NCBI GenBank assembly: GCA_030433215.1
Contig: JAUIMC010000001.1
Span: forward strand, 1-64,000
DNA: 64,000 bases
Direction: 5' to 3'
Origin: Alphaproteobacteria bacterium
GTDB taxonomy: Bacteria; Pseudomonadota; Alphaproteobacteria; Caulobacterales; Parvularculaceae
The notes below the pieces were generated by a model, which made no database searches, was not told the DNA's origin, and saw only the letters and a program-made list of their open reading frames with translations. A program made the translations under genes and the position numbers. Below, in pieces: positions 3,785-47,319 of this stretch (position 1 is the first letter of the stretch; each line of letters opens with the position of its first letter).

Positions 3785-6004
3785 CTAGAGAAAGGAATAC
3801 GGATCGATATCGACGCTGAGCCGGACGGCGCCGGGTATCTTCACCTTTTTCAGCCAGTCGGCGAGATAAGCCTGCAAATGCACGGTTTTCTTCGTCTTCA
3901 CCAGAAGACGCATGCGCGCCATGCCGCGCAGGCGATAGATCGGCGCCCGCGCCGGGCCCAGAACCTCGATGCCCTCAGCGCCGGGCGCCGCCGCGCGCAA
4001 GGTTCTGGCGGTCGCCTCCACCGCCTTTTCGTCAAGAGATTTGAGGGTGATCGCCGCCAGCCTGCCATAAGGCGGAAAGCCGAGATCGCTGCGCCCCGCC
4101 GCCTCGGCCGCGAGAAAGGCGTCGCGATCGCCGGAGGCGAGCGCGGCCAGCACCGGCGCGTCAGGCTGATAGGTCTGGAGGAGCGCCCGGCCGGGTTTTT
4201 CCGCGCGGCCCGCCCGGCCCGTCACCTGGCTCAGGAGCTGGTAAGTGCGTTCAGCCGCCCGCAGATCGCCGCCGGCGAGGCCGAGATCGGCGTCGACCAC
4301 GCCGACCAGGGTGAGGTTCGGGAAATGGTGGCCCTTTGCGGCCACCTGTGTCGCAATGAGAATGTCGATCTCGCCCTCGCGCATGGCGTCCAGCACTTCG
4401 CGCATGCTCCGCGGCCCCGGCGCCGTGTCGGACGACAGCACCGCGATGCGCGCCGTCGGCCAGCGCTCTTTCGCCTCTTCCGCCACCCGCTCAACCCCCG
4501 GGCCACACGGCGCCAGCGCATCGACCGCGTTGCAGACGGGACAGGCCGCAGGCTTCACCATGGAAAAGCCGGTATGGTGACACACAAGCCGGTTCTCGAA
4601 GCGGTGTTCCACCAGCATCGTATCGGAGCCCGGCGCCGTCATCTTGTGGCCGCAGCGCCGGCACAGCGTCAGCGGCGCATAACCGCGGCGATTGAGAAAC
4701 AGGAGAGACTGTTCGCCTGCGGATAAATTCTGCGAGACCGCGTCCACGAGCACCGGCGACAGCCATTTGCCCGCTTCGGGCGCATCTTCGCGCATGTCGA
4801 TGAGCCTGATGTCAGGAAGCGCCGCATCGGCGAAGCGCGAAGAAAGACCCACCGCCTCGTAGCGGCCTTCATCCACATTGACGACGGTTTCGAGCGACGG
4901 CGTCGCAGAAGCCAGCACCACGGGAAACCCGCCGAGACTGCCGCGCGCGACGCTTAAATCGCGGGCGTGATAGATGACGCCTTCTTCCTGCTTATAGGCG
5001 TTGTCATGCTCTTCATCGACAACGATCAGGCGCAGCTTTTTAAACGGCAGGAACAATGCCGAGCGCGCGCCGACGACGAGCCGCGCCTGGCCTTCGGCGA
5101 CGCGCCGCCAGGTGCGCCGCCTTTGCGCCCCGGTGAGATCGGAATGCCAGGGCGCGGGCGCGGCGCCGAAACGCTCCTCCACCCGCGAAAGAAACGGCAG
5201 GGTCAGCGCGATCTCCGGCAACAGGATCAGCGCCTGCGCCTCCGGGTCCCGCCGCAGCGCCGCGGCCACCGCCTCGAAATAAACCTCCGTCTTGCCCGAG
5301 CCGGTGACGCCGTCGATCAGCACGGCCTTGTGCCCGCCCTCGCCGATCACCGCGCCGATCATGTCCGCCGCATAGCGCTGGTCTTCGGAAAGATCGTGGC
5401 CCGCGCAGACCAGATCGGGGGCCTCAAAAGGCGGATCGGGATCGACCTCGACCCTTTCGAGCGCGCCCGTTTCAGCGAGGCCGCGCACCACCGCCTCAGA
5501 GACGCCGGCGGCGCCCGCAAGCTCCGCGGCGGAAGCCGGCGCCGCGCCCGCCGCGGCAAGCACCGCCTTTCGCTGCGCCGTCAGCCGCAACCCCTCCGGC
5601 GCTTCGCCCTTCACATAGGCCGTCTGCATGCGCGGGCCCTCGAGGGCGTCGGAAACGCGCATCACCATGCGCAGGATCGCGCCCTTCGGAAACATCGTAT
5701 AGGCGGCTGTCCAGTCGACAAAATCCACTAGCTCGCGCGACAAGGGCGGCGCCTCGTAAACAGCCGAGATCGCCTTCATCTTTTCTGGCGGCAGATCGTC
5801 TCCCCCGGACGGCCAGACGACGCCCGTAACCTCGCGCGGCCCGAAAGGCGCGGCCACGAAAGCGCCCACAGGCGGCGCTGGCGCGGCGCACAGATAATCA
5901 TAGGGCTTTGGCAGGGGCAGCGGAAACAGGACGCCGATACGCGCCGTTTCACGCCCGTCCTCGCGCGGTTCGCCCTTTTCTTCTCTCGGTGACGCCTTAT
6001 TCAT
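3785..6004 (-). CDS. priA: Primosomal protein N' (replication restart helicase PriA)
   Basis: PriA reloads the replisome at stalled forks. The 739-residue product contains the N-terminal 3'-end-binding region (LFPLPLPKPYDYL), a Walker A motif in DGVTGSGKTEV, the DEEH box in VVDEEHDNAYKQEE, and the helicase motifs ATPSLETV and QVTGRAGRAEKPG. The zinc region is unusual: it keeps CRRC, one Cys in CHHTG and CPVC, but lacks the CPxC pair and one further Cys seen in E. coli PriA, so one of the two zinc sites looks degenerate. The frame extends to 7186, but that extension overlaps a real plus-strand gene. ATG 6004 starts the recognisable protein, although its SD is weak. Confidence 0.93.
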   Translation of the reverse strand: MNKASPREEKGEPREDGRETARIGVLFPLPLPKPYDYLCAAPAPPVGAFVAAPFGPREVTGVVWPSGGDDLPPEKMKAISAVYEAPPLSRELVDFVDWTAAYTMFPKGAILRMVMRVSDALEGPRMQTAYVKGEAPEGLRLTAQRKAVLAAAGAAPASAAELAGAAGVSEAVVRGLAETGALERVEVDPDPPFEAPDLVCAGHDLSEDQRYAADMIGAVIGEGGHKAVLIDGVTGSGKTEVYFEAVAAALRRDPEAQALILLPEIALTLPFLSRVEERFGAAPAPWHSDLTGAQRRRTWRRVAEGQARLVVGARSALFLPFKKLRLIVVDEEHDNAYKQEEGVIYHARDLSVARGSLGGFPVVLASATPSLETVVNVDEGRYEAVGLSSRFADAALPDIRLIDMREDAPEAGKWLSPVLVDAVSQNLSAGEQSLLFLNRRGYAPLTLCRRCGHKMTAPGSDTMLVEHRFENRLVCHHTGFSMVKPAACPVCNAVDALAPCGPGVERVAEEAKERWPTARIAVLSSDTAPGPRSMREVLDAMREGEIDILIATQVAAKGHHFPNLTLVGVVDADLGLAGGDLRAAERTYQLLSQVTGRAGRAEKPGRALLQTYQPDAPVLAALASGDRDAFLAAEAAGRSDLGFPPYGRLAAITLKSLDEKAVEATARTLRAAAPGAEGIEVLGPARAPIYRLRGMARMRLLVKTKKTVHLQAYLADWLKKVKIPGAVRLSVDIDPYSFL

Positions 6005-19150: not shown

Positions 19151-19471
19151 CTAAAAAGGCAGCTTCATGCCGGGCGGGAGGGGCATGCCGGCGGTGAGCT
19201 TTTTCATCTGCTCTTCGGTTTCCTTTTCGAGTTTGGCCTTGGCGTCGTTGATCGCCGCGGCGACGAGGTCTTCCAAAATCTCCGCCTCGTCCTCTTTCAT
19301 CAGGGAGCGCTCGATGGCGACGGCCTTCGCATAGCCCTTGCCGTTCAGGACGACCTTCACCATGCCGGCGCCGGCCTCGCCCGTCGCCTCGATGTCGGCG
19401 AGCTTTTCCTGCATTTCCTGCATCCTGGCCTGCATCTCGCCGGCCTGTTTCATGATCTCGTTCAAATCCAT
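19151..19471 (-). CDS. ybaB: YbaB/EbfC family nucleoid-associated protein
   Basis: Small DNA-binding dimer of the YbaB family. The 106-residue product has the diagnostic MNEIMKQAGEMQARMQEMQ-like N-terminal helix (here starting MDLNEIMKQA), the GxGMVKVVLNGKG strand and a C-terminal Met/Pro-rich tail (MPLPPGMKLPF). Its start overlaps the dnaX stop codon by one base (ATGA-type junction), as in many bacteria where dnaX, ybaB and recR are cotranscribed. Confidence 0.95.
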   Translation of the reverse strand: MDLNEIMKQAGEMQARMQEMQEKLADIEATGEAGAGMVKVVLNGKGYAKAVAIERSLMKEDEAEILEDLVAAAINDAKAKLEKETEEQMKKLTAGMPLPPGMKLPF

Positions 19472-21294
19472 TACGCTTTTCCTGTTTCCGTTCGTTTTGC
19501 GCTGTTGGCCGCGGCCGCTTCGGCGACGGCGTCGTCATCGGGGTCGACGGGCGCGTCTTCCTCCGCCTCGTCGGGGGCGGGCGCCGCAGGCGCTTCGGGC
19601 TCGCGGATCGCCGTCACTTTCGCATCGGGGAAGAGCTCCAGCGCCTTCATCACCATGGGGTGTTCCATCACCTCGCGCTCGCGTGCGCCGCGCACCGTCT
19701 CCTCGCCTTCATGTTCTGAGGTGACGGAAACGATCCACGCCTTGCCGGTCCACTCTTTAAGGCGCTGCGTCAACCGGTTCGCAAGATCCCGCGGCGCGTC
19801 GTCATGGAGACGCAGCTCGATCTTGCCCTCCCGGAAGGAGACGATGTGAACATAGGACTCAAGCTCGGTGCGCAGTTTCGCGTCGCGCTTTTCGCCCGCG
19901 AGGCGCACCACGTCGCCGAAGGCGCGCAGCCAGATTTGCGCTTCCGCCGGGCGCTGCGACAAGGGCGGGCTGATGTCGATGACCTGCGCGGAGGGCCTTT
20001 CCTCGCGCTGCGCGGTCACCGGCGCGCGCTCGGACGCCGCCGCTGAAGAGGCCGCCGGGGCGCTTACTCCGCCGCCGCTAGTGTTTTTTTTTAAGGCCTT
20101 GAGCGCTTCGTCCGGCGTCGGCAGGTCCGCCGCGAAGCACAGGCGGATAAGCGCCATTTCCCCCGCCGCCGCCGCGTCGGGCGCCATTTGCGTTTCCTGA
20201 AGCCCCTTCATGAGGAGCGACCAGACGCGGGTCAGCGCGTTCATTTCAAGATTGGCGGCGAGCGCCTTGGCGCGCTCGGCGTCGGCCTCGCCCGCGGGCC
20301 CGTGCGCCGCGGCCTCGGGCCCCGCCGCCTTGATGCGCGTCAGGAGGTGCGTGAGGTCGAGAAGGTCGCGCAGCACCTGCGCCGGTTCGGCGCCGCCGTC
20401 ATATTGCCCGCGGAAGTTTTCAAGCGCGGCCTTGGCGTCGCCCTTCATCGCGGCTTCGAGCAGCGTCCAGACGGACGAGCGGTCGGCAAGGCCCAGCATG
20501 TCGCGGATCATGTCGGCGGTGACCGCTTCCCCGCCCTGCGTCGTATGCTGAACAATCGCCTGGTCGAGAATGGAGAGCGCGTCGCGCACCGAGCCTTCGG
20601 CGGCGCGCGCGATCATCCATAGCCCATCGCGGTCGACGGAGACATTTTCCTTTCCAGCGATAGACACCAAATGATCAGTGAGCACTTCCGGATCGATGCG
20701 GCGCAAGTCGAAACGCTGGCAGCGCGACAGCACAGTGACAGGAAGTTTCCTGATCTCCGTCGTCGCGAAAATGAATTTCACATGGGGCGGCGGCTCTTCG
20801 AGCGTTTTCAACAGCGCATTGAACGCCGCCGTCGAGAGCATGTGGACTTCGTCGATGATGTAGACCTTGTAGCGCGCTTCCACCGGCGCATAGCGCACGC
20901 CCTCGATCAACTCGCGGATGTCGCCGACCCCGGTGCGGGAGGCGGCGTCCATTTCCATGACGTCCGGATGGCGGCTTTCGGCGATGGCGCGGCAGTGACG
21001 GCCTTCCGTCTCCATCTCGATCTGCGGGCCGTTGTCCTCGCCGTCCGGTCCCACATAATTGAGAGCGCGGGCGAGAATGCGGGCGGTCGTCGTCTTGCCG
21101 ACCCCGCGCACGCCGGTGAGGATATAGGCGTGGGCGATGCGGTTGGCGGCGAAGGCGTTTTTCAGCGTCTTCACCATGGCCTCGTGACCGATCAGGTCCT
21201 CGAAGGTCTGCGGGCGGTATTTGCGCGCCAGCACCTGATAGGCGCCGCCGCTCTTTTCCGCGCTGTCTTCTTTCTCGGCCATTGGTTCCGCCAT
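19471..21294 (-). CDS. dnaX: DNA polymerase III subunit gamma/tau, with candidate slippage site
   Basis: This is the clamp-loader ATPase of the replicative polymerase. The 607-residue tau-length product has ARKYRPQTFEDLIGHE, Walker A in GVRGVGKTTTARILARAL, the zinc region, DEVHMLSTAAFNALLKTLEEPP, and sensor/SRC-type motifs, followed by domains III and IV-V. An A9 tract on the coding strand (plus-strand 20084-20092) includes the heptamer A-AAA-AAC ending at codon 404. A -1 shift gives K-H then TAG (405 residues); loss of one A gives TAA after 409 residues. Both end just past domain III, where E. coli gamma also ends. Start ATG 21294; ATG 21282 is an alternative. Confidence 0.95.
   Translation of the reverse strand: MAEPMAEKEDSAEKSGGAYQVLARKYRPQTFEDLIGHEAMVKTLKNAFAANRIAHAYILTGVRGVGKTTTARILARALNYVGPDGEDNGPQIEMETEGRHCRAIAESRHPDVMEMDAASRTGVGDIRELIEGVRYAPVEARYKVYIIDEVHMLSTAAFNALLKTLEEPPPHVKFIFATTEIRKLPVTVLSRCQRFDLRRIDPEVLTDHLVSIAGKENVSVDRDGLWMIARAAEGSVRDALSILDQAIVQHTTQGGEAVTADMIRDMLGLADRSSVWTLLEAAMKGDAKAALENFRGQYDGGAEPAQVLRDLLDLTHLLTRIKAAGPEAAAHGPAGEADAERAKALAANLEMNALTRVWSLLMKGLQETQMAPDAAAAGEMALIRLCFAADLPTPDEALKALKKNTSGGGVSAPAASSAAASERAPVTAQREERPSAQVIDISPPLSQRPAEAQIWLRAFGDVVRLAGEKRDAKLRTELESYVHIVSFREGKIELRLHDDAPRDLANRLTQRLKEWTGKAWIVSVTSEHEGEETVRGAREREVMEHPMVMKALELFPDAKVTAIREPEAPAAPAPDEAEEDAPVDPDDDAVAEAAAANSAKRTETGKA
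20083..20095 (-). promoter_or_regulatory. dnaX: Candidate programmed frameshift or transcriptional slippage site in dnaX
   Basis: The coding strand reads CC TTA AAA AAA AAC ACT AGC. It contains nine consecutive A residues and the X-XXY-YYZ heptamer A-AAA-AAC in the zero frame. E. coli dnaX uses A-AAA-AAG for a -1 ribosomal shift and Thermus dnaX uses an A9 run for transcriptional slippage, both yielding gamma. Here a shift into either alternative frame meets a stop within about 8 codons. An AAGG lies immediately upstream and could act as an SD-like stimulator. Confidence 0.6.
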
Positions 21295-24998: not shown

Positions 24999-25634
24999 AT
25001 GAAAGATCCGCTTTTTAGCAACAAGATCGCGGCGGCCGTGCTGACGGCTCTCCTGCTGATTTTCGGCCTGCCGCAGCTCACCAAGGCGCTTTTCGGCGGC
25101 GGCGGCCATCATGGCGGCGATGAAGAACTGCATCTCGCTTATGGCGGCGAGCTGGAATTCGGCGGCGACGCGGCCCCGGCCGAAGCCGAACCGGAAGTCG
25201 ATCTCGGCACGCTCCTCGCCAACGCCAGCGCCTCCGCCGGCGAGCGCCGCGCGGCGCTGTGCAAATCCTGCCACACCTTCGAGGAAGGCGGCGCCAACGG
25301 CACCGGCCCCAATCTCTGGGGCGTCGTCGGCCGCGAACTCGCAAGCCACGCCGGCTTCAACTACACCAACGCCCTGAAAGAAGCCGGCGGCGTGTGGACA
25401 TACGAACGCCTCGATCATTATCTGGAAAACTCCCAGAATTATGTGCCCGGCACGGCGATGGTTCAGCGCTTCCCGCGCGACGATCAGCGCGCCGACATTC
25501 TCGCCTATCTCGGCTCGCTCTCCGCCGACCCGGTCCCCTTCCCCGAGCCGGCCCCGGCCGCCGAGGAAGAAGCCCCGGCGGAAGAAGAGCACGCCGCCCT
25601 TGACGGCGAAGGCTCAAAAAAAAACGCTCATTAG
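24999..25634 (+). CDS. Membrane-anchored mono-haem cytochrome c (N-terminal part of a split tri-haem peroxidase?)
   Basis: The 211-residue product has an uncleaved N-terminal transmembrane anchor (about 9-27), a Gly/His/acidic linker, and a class I cytochrome c domain. The haem motif is CKSCH (about residue 88) and the distal Met lies in PGTAMVQRF. The tail is Pro/Glu/Ala-rich. It ends GSKKNAH at a stop just after an A9 run (25616-25624). A -1 shift on A-AAA-AAC in that run would continue straight into the peroxidase frame. As a separate protein it resembles CycM-type electron carriers. ATG 24999 (or ATG 24990) starts it. Confidence 0.85.
   Translation: MKDPLFSNKIAAAVLTALLLIFGLPQLTKALFGGGGHHGGDEELHLAYGGELEFGGDAAPAEAEPEVDLGTLLANASASAGERRAALCKSCHTFEEGGANGTGPNLWGVVGRELASHAGFNYTNALKEAGGVWTYERLDHYLENSQNYVPGTAMVQRFPRDDQRADILAYLGSLSADPVPFPEPAPAAEEEAPAEEEHAALDGEGSKKNAH
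25616..25625 (+). promoter_or_regulatory. A9 tract with A-AAA-AAC heptamer at a frame junction
   Basis: Zero frame reads TCA AAA AAA AAC GCT CAT TAG. A -1 shift re-reads as AAA CGC TCA TTA GAT GAC and enters the peroxidase frame with no stop codon. The heptamer fits the ribosomal slippage consensus X-XXY-YYZ, and nine A residues can also cause transcriptional slippage, a genuine one-base deletion, or a sequencing error. Confidence 0.55.
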
Positions 25635-26554
25635 ATGACGACCTCGCCCTCTATTATGAGGGCGTAGAGCCGGTTCCGGCCGCCGTCGACGTCAATGAAA
25701 GGCTCGCCCTGCTCGGCGAGGCGCTCTATCACGACACGCTTCTTTCCGGCGACGGCACAGTTTCCTGCGCGACCTGTCACGGGCTCGAGACGGGCGGCGT
25801 CGACAGGCTGCCGGTCTCTACGGGCGTCAAAGGCCAGCAGGGGCCGATCAACGCGCCGACGGTCTACAACTCCGGCTATAACTTCGTACAGTTCTGGGAC
25901 GGGCGCGCCGCGGACCTTGAGGAACAGGCCGCCGGTCCCGTTGAAAACCCGCTGGAGATGGGCGATGCATGGCCGGAGGTCGTGGAAAAAGTCGCCGCCA
26001 GCGAGAAATACCGCCCGGCTTTTGACGAGCTTTTCGGCGGCGACGTCAGCGTCGAAACGATCACCGAAGCGATCGCCGAATTCGAGCGCACGCTGGTCAC
26101 GCCGAACGCGCCCTTCGACAAATATCTGAAAGGCGACAAGACGGCGCTGACGGAAGAAGAAAAGCGCGGCGCCTTGCTGTTTGCCGAAGTCGGCTGCACG
26201 AGTTGCCATTCCGGCGCCTATTTCGGCGGCGAGAATTATCAGAAAATCGCGGAAAGCTATTTCGCGGATCGCGGCGGGGAAATCCAGGAGGCCGATCTCG
26301 GCCGCTACAACGTCACCGGCAATGACGCGCATATGCACATGTTCAAGACGCCGATCCTGCGCAATGTCGAAGTGACCTGGCCCTATTTCCATGACGGGTC
26401 GGCGCCGGATCTGAAAACGGCGGTTGAGACCATGGCGGAGCACCAGCTCGGCCTCGAACTGCCGGAAGCCGACGCGACGGCCATCACCGCGTTTTTGCAA
26501 ACGCTGACCGGCGAGTATCAGGGCCAGCCGCTCGATGAAATGAGCGCCAACTAA
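25634..26554 (+). CDS. Di-haem cytochrome c peroxidase (MauG/CcpA family), no own start codon in frame
   Basis: This frame encodes about 306 residues of a periplasmic di-haem peroxidase that reduces hydrogen peroxide. It has LGEALYHDTLLSGDGTVSCATCHG (first haem; quoted here as SCATCHG with the SGDGTVSC lead), WDGRAADLEEQAAGP, and the second haem motif CTSCHSG, ending with FLQTLTGEY. The frame has no ATG or GTG before the internal ATG at 25958, and no signal peptide. It joins the upstream cytochrome c frame only through the A9 tract. The joined product would be a TM anchor, one haem domain, then two haems, as in E. coli YhjA. Confidence 0.8.
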   Translation, partial: DDDLALYYEGVEPVPAAVDVNERLALLGEALYHDTLLSGDGTVSCATCHGLETGGVDRLPVSTGVKGQQGPINAPTVYNSGYNFVQFWDGRAADLEEQAAGPVENPLEMGDAWPEVVEKVAASEKYRPAFDELFGGDVSVETITEAIAEFERTLVTPNAPFDKYLKGDKTALTEEEKRGALLFAEVGCTSCHSGAYFGGENYQKIAESYFADRGGEIQEADLGRYNVTGNDAHMHMFKTPILRNVEVTWPYFHDGSAPDLKTAVETMAEHQLGLELPEADATAITAFLQTLTGEYQGQPLDEMSAN

Positions 26555-41142: not shown

Positions 41143-42996
41143 ATGAGAAATAAGACGATCCTGCGCCGGGCGGGCGCCCTCGCCGCCGTTTCGGCGCTGG
41201 CCCTCGCCGCGGCCTGCAGCCAGGGCCCGGCTGAAACGCCTGAGACAGGCGCGCCCACGGTCGAAGAGGCCGACGAGTTCATCACCGGCGTCGAAGATTG
41301 GTATCGGGATTTCGGCGAATATTCCGCGCGCATCAATTGGGTGAACGCCACCTATATTAATTACGACACCGATTGGCTCGCCTCGCGCGTCGCCGCCGAA
41401 GGCACCGAGATGGGCGTCAAATTCGCCAATGAAGCCAAGCGCTTCAACGATCTCGACCTGCCGGCCGAGATGCGCCGCAAGATCGAGTTCATCAAGCTCG
41501 GCCTCAACCTGCCGGCGCCGGAAAAGCCGGGCGCGGCGAAAGAGCTGGCGCAGATCAACACCCGCATGGCCTCGACCTACGCCACCGGCAAGATCGAACT
41601 CGACGGCGAAACCGTCGCCCGCGTCGATCTGGAAGAGATGATGGGAACGGTGCGCGACCCGGCCAAGCTCGAAGAAATCTGGGTGAAGTGGCGCGAAATC
41701 CCGGTCGCCGAAAACGATGACGGCACGACCATGAAAGAGGATTACGCCCGCATGGCCGAGATCGCCAATGCCGGAGCGAAAGAACTCGGCTTTGACGATG
41801 TCGGCGCCATGTGGCGGGCACGCTACGATCTTCCGCCTGCGGAGTTTGCCGCGGAAACAGACCGCCTTTGGGAGCAGGTGAAGCCGCTTTACGATCAGCT
41901 TCACTGCCATGTGCGCGCCAAGCTGAACGAGCAATATGGCGACGCCGTCGTCCCGCAGGGCGAACCGATCCGCGCCGATCTTCTCGGCAATATGTGGGCG
42001 CAAAGCTGGGCCAATATCTACGATCTCGTCGCGCCCGCGGACGCCGATCCCGGCTATGATCTGACGGCTCTTTTGAAGGCGCAGAATTACGACGCGACCC
42101 GCATGGTCAAGACCGGCGAGGCGTTCTTCTCGTCGCTCGGATTCGAGCCGCTGCCCGAAACCTTCTGGGAACGCTCGCAGATCACCAAGCCGGAAGACCG
42201 CGAAGTCGTCTGCCACGCCTCGGCGTGGGATCTCGACAGCCAGGACGACATCCGCATCAAGATGTGCACCAAGGTGAACTCGGACGACTTCCAGACCGTC
42301 CATCACGAGCTCGGGCACAATTACTATCAGCGCGCCTACAAGGATCAGCCGCCGCTCTTTCAGGGCGGCGCCAATGGCGGCTTTCACGAGGCGATCGGCG
42401 ACATGGTCGCGCTTTCGATCACGCCCGATTACCTCAAAGAGATCGGCCTTCTCGAAGAAACGCCCGACGCCTCGAAAGACATCGGGCTCCTGATGGCGCA
42501 GGCGCTGGAGAAAATCTCCTTCATGCCCTTCGGCCTGCTGATGGACAAATGGCGCTGGGAAGTTTTCAACGGCGAGCTGACGCCGGAAACCTATAATGAC
42601 GGCTGGTGGGAGCTGCGCGAACAATATCAGGGCATCCGCCCGCCGGAGACGCGCGACGCCCGTTATTTCGATCCGGGCGGGAAATATCACATCCCCGGCA
42701 ATGTCTCCTATACGCGCTATTTCATCGCCCACATCCTGCAGTTCCAGTTCCACAAGGCCGCCTGCGAACAGGCCGGCTGGACGGGGCCGCTGCACCGCTG
42801 TTCGGTCTACGGATCGAAGGCAGTCGGCGAGAAGTTCAACGCCATGCTGGAAATGGGCGCCTCGAAGCCATGGCCCGAAGCGCTCGACGCCTTCACCGGC
42901 ACGTCCAAAATGGACGGCGAGGCGGTGGTCGAATATTTCGCGCCGCTTATGGAATGGCTCGAAGAGCAGAATGAAGGCCGCACCTGCGGCTGGTAA
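41143..42996 (+). CDS. M2-family zinc peptidyl-dipeptidase (ACE-like), predicted lipoprotein
   Basis: The 617-residue protein starts with a lipoprotein signal (LALAAACSQ, Cys about 24). It carries the M2 catalytic motif VHHELGHNYY (HExxH at 388-392) and the third zinc ligand Glu416 in GGFHEAIGDMVALS. Further ACE-like sequence includes AWDLDSQDDIRIKMCTKVNSDD and KYHIPGNVSYTRYFIAHIL. It likely removes C-terminal dipeptides from peptides in the periplasm or at the outer membrane. It stands alone and is followed by a strong terminator at 43019-43047. Confidence 0.94.
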   Translation: MRNKTILRRAGALAAVSALALAAACSQGPAETPETGAPTVEEADEFITGVEDWYRDFGEYSARINWVNATYINYDTDWLASRVAAEGTEMGVKFANEAKRFNDLDLPAEMRRKIEFIKLGLNLPAPEKPGAAKELAQINTRMASTYATGKIELDGETVARVDLEEMMGTVRDPAKLEEIWVKWREIPVAENDDGTTMKEDYARMAEIANAGAKELGFDDVGAMWRARYDLPPAEFAAETDRLWEQVKPLYDQLHCHVRAKLNEQYGDAVVPQGEPIRADLLGNMWAQSWANIYDLVAPADADPGYDLTALLKAQNYDATRMVKTGEAFFSSLGFEPLPETFWERSQITKPEDREVVCHASAWDLDSQDDIRIKMCTKVNSDDFQTVHHELGHNYYQRAYKDQPPLFQGGANGGFHEAIGDMVALSITPDYLKEIGLLEETPDASKDIGLLMAQALEKISFMPFGLLMDKWRWEVFNGELTPETYNDGWWELREQYQGIRPPETRDARYFDPGGKYHIPGNVSYTRYFIAHILQFQFHKAACEQAGWTGPLHRCSVYGSKAVGEKFNAMLEMGASKPWPEALDAFTGTSKMDGEAVVEYFAPLMEWLEEQNEGRTCGW

Positions 42997-47190: not shown

Positions 47191-47252
47191 GGCGGAGGCT
47201 TGTACCCGCGCCGCGCGCCAAAACAAGGGGAAGGCAAGGGCGGGGCGCAAAG

Positions 47253-47287
47253 AAAAAACCGCGCGGGGGGAAGGGACCCCGCGCGGC
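47253..47287 (-). terminator. Rho-independent terminator downstream of the small Cys-protein genes
   Basis: A perfect 10-bp stem CCGCGCGGGG / CCCCGCGCGG (47260-47269 and 47278-47287), followed on the minus strand by T6. It closes the transcript of the two small exported proteins before hisH. Confidence 0.88.
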
Positions 47288-47319
47288 TCTTTAAGCAGCC
47301 GGTTGTGGCAACCGGACGC

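Follow-up and report, generated by a model that had tools for sequence, protein, structure and literature searches.

Polymerase slippage on dnaX makes the gamma subunit in Thermus thermophilus (PMC1088944, PMC5009743). In tssM1 of Citrobacter rodentium, transcriptional frameshifting takes place at a run of eleven A's, and both lengths of the protein are required (PMC4256274). Few cases of conserved recoding are known from non-mobile chromosomal genes, their number being one that "is small" in the words of PMC5009743, and a single non-mobile candidate with a run of nine A's, mapW, appears among the seven conserved cases of PMC1088944. Among the best-ranked literature matches, judged by title and the start of the abstract, none described recoding in a gene for a cytochrome or a peroxidase, and the words "cytochrome" and "peroxidase" are absent from the main text of a survey of 1106 genomes (PMC3711429). 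With respect to domain layout, the closest described enzymes are the non-classical tri-haem quinol peroxidases E. coli YhjA/Ccp and Aggregatibacter QPO, in which a transmembrane anchor is followed by a mono-haem domain and a di-haem peroxidase (PMC10301912). In the following paragraphs we describe a locus in which such a layout appears to be encoded in two reading frames.

The window (the whole stretch of 64,000 nucleotides that was analysed, from an alphaproteobacterium of the family Parvularculaceae) contains on its forward strand a zero-frame ORF (24999..25634) encoding a membrane-anchored mono-haem cytochrome c of the CycM/c552/cy type, 211 aa in length, with a single CxxCH motif and a hydrophobic N-terminus as read from the sequence. 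The protein ends in GSKKNAH (codons TCA AAA AAA AAC GCT CAT TAG), with the TAG at 25632-25634. A second forward-strand ORF, in the -1 frame and lacking a start codon (25604..26554, stop at 26552-26554), has 316 open codons with two CxxCH motifs and encodes a di-haem cytochrome c peroxidase domain. The overlap of these two ORFs holds a run of nine A's (A9; 25616..25624, forward strand), which reads TCA AAA AAA AAC in the zero frame, is the proposed slippage site, and provides the zero-frame heptamers A_AAA_AAA (25616-25622) and A_AAA_AAC (25619-25625). A -1 shift on this run fuses the cytochrome and peroxidase frames with no stop between them, the predicted fusion being 518 aa long with three haems and its post-shift part lying at about 25625-26551; the third (+1) frame reaches a stop four codons past the run. 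The earlier note had placed the end of the cytochrome frame just past A9 and had joined the two frames by a -1 shift without a stop, and our reading of the frames agrees with it on both points.

This arrangement resembles that of T. thermophilus dnaX in its nine sense-strand A's, in its two predicted products with a common N-terminus, and in the stops that lie near in the frames yielding the short product (PMC1088944, PMC5009743). It differs in that slippage in T. thermophilus leads to the short product, whereas at this locus it would be needed for the long one, the extra part of which is a whole separate enzyme. C. rodentium tssM1 likewise has its poly-A just before a stop, slippage adding a C-terminal domain to give two lengths, but there, as described in PMC4256274, a prematurely interrupted gene is rescued, while here an independent catalytic domain stands behind a conserved respiratory cytochrome.

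The earliest ATG, GTG or TTG of the peroxidase frame is residue 119 (25958), and its first haem motif is residue 55. The earlier note was right that this frame has no early start, though its "residue ~109" is residue 119 of the open frame. A start at residue 119 would lose the first haem site and leave no export signal. A peroxidase with a start of its own was ruled out in the window genome, no ATG, GTG or TTG preceding that residue, as was a restart at the ATG beside the zero-frame stop, since that ATG belongs to the zero frame and not to the peroxidase frame. The codons CTG, ATT, ATC and ATA are represented ahead of the first haem by one CTG, at residue 36. Because there is no start before the first haem in this genome, the peroxidase is most simply reached by way of the cytochrome. 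Two codons at the junction are uncommon in the 43 mechanical ORFs of the window: TTA, which the zero-frame stop forces on the -1 frame, makes up 2% of Leu codons, and TCA, which precedes the A run, makes up 5.5% of Ser codons.

The same split, with A9 and a zero-frame TAG, is present in Marinicaulis flavus SY-3-19, a name which NCBI now files under Hyphococcus luteus; this was the best of 292 relatives in genome contigs, 80 of which were kept. The A9 run lies at 5010-5018 of the retrieved locus (L015), the cytochrome is 210 aa in length and also ends in GSKKNAH followed by the stop, and the proteins are 80% (peroxidase) and 85-87% (cytochrome) identical to those of the window. The peroxidase frame has 316 open codons in both species, with no indel or stop in either, and the zero-frame stop is kept in both despite forcing TTA on the peroxidase frame. 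An alignment of homologues was among the checks proposed in the earlier note; it finds the frames likewise split and the A run kept, which disfavours the one-base deletion or error private to this genome that the note had also entertained. The conservation of the split rests on one species pair, that is, on two of the 62 family genomes with the window genome included. A GTG (residue 21) and an ATG (residue 34) precede the first haem in the M. flavus peroxidase frame and are both missing from the window; no export signal was seen by eye after these two M. flavus codons. A 31-nt block is identical in the window and M. flavus, and it was not used alone as proof since 469 of 2000 codon shuffles reach the same length, which makes it unexceptional.

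Between the two species the peroxidase frame has a dN of 0.137 and a dS of 0.723 by NG86 (0.132 and 1.30 by YN00). The dN/dS of 0.19 (NG86; bootstrap 0.12-0.26) is similar in both halves and reveals purifying selection; the other two frames of the region (300 and 301 codons, stops dropped) have the reversed substitution pattern. The low dN/dS leads us to conclude that translation of the peroxidase frame, and selection on it, have gone on since the divergence of the two species.

The cytochrome ORF matches Pfam Cytochrom_C (E 1.1e-9), and the solved structures nearest to it, among them PDB 9fks_o (E 1.5e-25) and 3m97, cytochrome c-552 (E 3.6e-23), are those of respiratory cytochromes c. We take CycM to be the appropriate name for this cytochrome type; CycM is the electron donor to an aa3 oxidase. 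Like CycM, c552 and cytochrome cy, the zero-frame product combines a class I cytochrome c domain with an N-terminal hydrophobic anchor; unlike the window and M. flavus, the other loci of this cytochrome among the 20 read have no A9 recoding site or peroxidase. A cytochrome match at E 1e-5 exists in all 28 congeneric genomes, and a close one (63-100% identity) in 27 of them, the window genome being counted in; one of these 27 matches is partial, and the best match in the remaining genome (G005) is only 44% identical. The window genome itself has only one other match, 45% identical and in a 159-codon frame.

Twenty congeneric cytochrome loci, those of the window genome and M. flavus among them, were read in detail. 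A prephenate dehydratase gene lies upstream of the cytochrome in every one, and just two of the 20, those of the window genome and M. flavus, have A9 with a peroxidase behind the cytochrome. In the other 18, no peroxidase is found in the flank (at least 443 bases), and the longest A run is six over the range scanned, which was the last 150 bases of the cytochrome plus 30. The gene following the peroxidase in the window is ybjQ-like (Pfam YbjQ_1). Nine of the 18 peroxidase-free loci have a ybjQ-like gene downstream of the cytochrome (it was not found in the other nine), its match starting at most 22 bases from the cytochrome stop in seven of the nine, the distances in the remaining two being 59 and 105 bases. 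A close peroxidase at E 1e-60 is found in two of 62 family genomes. At E 1e-20 the count is four of 28 genus genomes, two of these matches being distant (42-43%) and on contigs apart from their cytochrome. Since none of the 18 other loci has a peroxidase or a long A run, the simplest account is the insertion of a peroxidase gene downstream of a CycM-type cytochrome gene that was already resident.

The peroxidase frame matches Pfam CCP_MauG (E 1.1e-58) and the structures PDB 1iqc (E 1.3e-84) and 9qdt (E 4.8e-82), and it is 47% identical to E. coli YhjA over 288 residues. W250, Q260 and E270, named as functional residues of YhjA (PMC10301912), are matched in the aligned window peroxidase, and the haem residues are kept. 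The SIGHKW of 1iqc is replaced by STGVKG in the window, as compared with SIGVGG in YhjA, and this points to an enzyme of the YhjA kind, for which reductive activation would be unnecessary. In a peroxidase tree whose 39 rows comprise the window, YhjA and 37 of the fetched loci (four long branches flagged), the window and M. flavus form a branch of their own (100/99), which falls outside the 13-row clade that holds YhjA (99/97) and outside a clade of Myxococcota di-haem enzymes (95/92); its exact deeper place is not fixed by the tree. The mono-haem domain gave no significant alignment with that of YhjA (best E 0.037). The window fusion has its layout in common with YhjA and QPO, but its mono-haem domain is unrelated in sequence and it is encoded in two frames. 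The "exactly this domain order" by which the earlier note had likened the locus to YhjA holds for the layout and does not extend to homology of the mono-haem domain; on these alignments, the likeness is one of layout only, reached through a separate fusion.

We consider it very probable that recoding at A9, by polymerase or ribosome, yields two proteins, the 211-aa cytochrome in free form and a tri-haem fusion of 518 aa. A di-haem peroxidase gene lacking both a start and an export signal would have been inserted behind a cycM-type gene, and its product would be made solely as an extension at the C-terminus of the cytochrome, reached when RNA polymerase (the likelier) or the ribosome slips on A9. 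Messages that are unslipped or shifted in the opposite direction would meet a stop after another three to four codons, which leaves the ordinary membrane cytochrome in its free form, and messages or ribosomes in the -1 frame would give the membrane-tethered tri-haem peroxidase, whose mono-haem domain could pass respiratory-chain electrons to the di-haem centre. We infer from sequence the occurrence of slippage, the making of both products, the identity of the slipping machine and the path of the electrons. The earlier note had also proposed a slippage fusion, possibly with a short free cytochrome alongside, and the conserved split, A9 and stop, along with purifying selection, support it. The free form is probably required, given that the genome holds no close second copy of the cytochrome and that at the 18 other loci the cytochrome stands without a peroxidase.

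A9 sites number six in the 3.75 Mb of the window genome, where about 1.7 are expected from base composition, and five in M. flavus; compared by sight, the only ones recurring in both genomes are the cytochrome-peroxidase junction and dnaX. The window dnaX (tau; 19471..21294, minus strand) has its A9 at 20084-20092, in the same codon phase as that of the junction. In eight of the 28 congeneric genomes dnaX was compared, and in all eight (the window genome included) the run is exactly nine and the tau frame is open past it. Beyond the run, the -1 frame has a stop within 1-3 codons and the +1 frame within 5-9 codons in every one of the eight; against the background, a -1 stop within three codons has a chance of 0.08 and a +1 stop within ten a chance of 0.27, values that do not multiply across genomes related to one another. 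The next base varies among C, G and T in the eight, and no special fold follows the run in the window (z 0.03). Judged by these features, dnaX here is a slippage layout of the T. thermophilus type in an alphaproteobacterial genus. Another A9 site of the window genome, at 302790-302798 of contig C24 (G000; L121), lies in a 302-codon open frame and is absent from the A9 contexts of M. flavus. A 23-base near-match to the junction with two mismatches in a further genome (G006:C6:5479-5501; L116) was taken as chance, there being no cytochrome match in that locus.

As to which machine slips, we regard the polymerase as somewhat the likelier, the two acting together being allowed. The same two products could arise by -1 ribosomal frameshifting at A_AAA_AAA/A_AAA_AAC, aided by a downstream RNA structure; this we rate as possible though rather doubtful, and it overlaps with the reading preferred above, our confidence in which covers either machine. 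Slippery X_XXY_YYZ heptamers are indeed present in the zero frame, and a three-way junction of 71 nt, a candidate stimulator, is predicted at 25628..25698 (forward strand), 5 nt after A_AAA_AAA. In IS911, frameshifting is known to be stimulated by a three-way junction (work cited in PMC4066793). The 76-nt fold has an energy of -33 kcal/mol (z -4.3), that of M. flavus -35 kcal/mol (z -4.3), and 51 of the 52 junction pair cells hold across the two species. However, two-sided covariation is lacking, and three of the eight substitutions fall on paired bases (Fisher p 0.10), the stems not being clearly avoided. Among 635 forward-strand tiles taken every 100 nt, the one at 25625 is the lowest, but its borders had been placed to suit the fold: neighbours offset by 5 nt have z values of -3.8 and -2.3, 100-nt folds -3.0 and -2.5, and folds taking in the upstream side -2.4 and -1.2. 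On the reverse strand three of 635 tiles have still lower values, and one of the three is complementary to the 25625 tile. The RNA junction was rejected as proof of ribosomal frameshifting, its striking energy needing well-placed borders and covariation being absent. The most extreme tile of the scan, at 47225-47300 on the minus strand (z -7.6), looks like an ordinary intrinsic terminator, and the second strongest reverse-strand tile is at 41725-41800 (minus strand; z -5.0).

Both homologues shift in the -1 direction, which by the rule given in PMC3711429, that a single shift direction points to the ribosome, would favour frameshifting, with n=2. On the other side, no conserved upstream Shine-Dalgarno-like element was seen by eye, the GAAGG of the window being GACGG in M. 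flavus, and the run is nine long though a ribosomal site needs seven. The retention of A9 in dnaX with a varying next base, and with no special fold in the window, also suits polymerase slippage. Lysine tRNAs would bear on the ribosomal route, but no tRNA-Lys was found among 39 tRNA matches, the search evidently having missed it, and a tRNA pattern was likewise empty.

An ordinary in-frame fusion gene, the homopolymer of which is undercounted in both assemblies, is unlikely. Homopolymer length is a classic error, but two separate assemblies agree on nine, all eight genomes have a dnaX run called at exactly nine and followed by an open tau frame, and in such a gene the zero-frame stop and the rare codons forced by it would be pointless. 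We give equally little credence to phase variation, in which the length of the A run changes by replication slippage and the fusion is switched on and off across the population: A9 runs are likely hypermutable (PMC1088944), yet the run is exactly nine in both species and in dnaX of all eight genomes, as expected for selection on length. That the peroxidase is a decaying pseudogene behind a working cytochrome would agree with the lack of a start codon before residue 119, but is most improbable given a dN/dS of 0.19 with dS of 0.7-1.3, the absence of indels and stops in either species, and the retention of haem and active-site residues.

If the dual-product reading is true, a respiratory electron carrier doubles as the anchor of a peroxidase, in a ratio set by slippage. 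Automatic annotation would probably misjudge such a peroxidase, taking it for a broken gene or giving it a wrong start codon, and dnaX of the same genus offers a ready comparison for A9 recoding. We put forward tentatively, as an idea that we hold a little short of evenly balanced, that this lineage has turned a respiratory cytochrome into a dual-output gene through RNA polymerase slippage at A9. That slippage would set the ratio in which free carrier and peroxidase tethered to the carrier are made, and the downstream RNA junction or growth conditions would perhaps tune it, in a genus that appears to use A9 in dnaX as well. An out-of-frame insertion would then have created a new architecture while the old product was retained, which suggests a route by which a fusion enzyme may evolve without loss of the parent protein.
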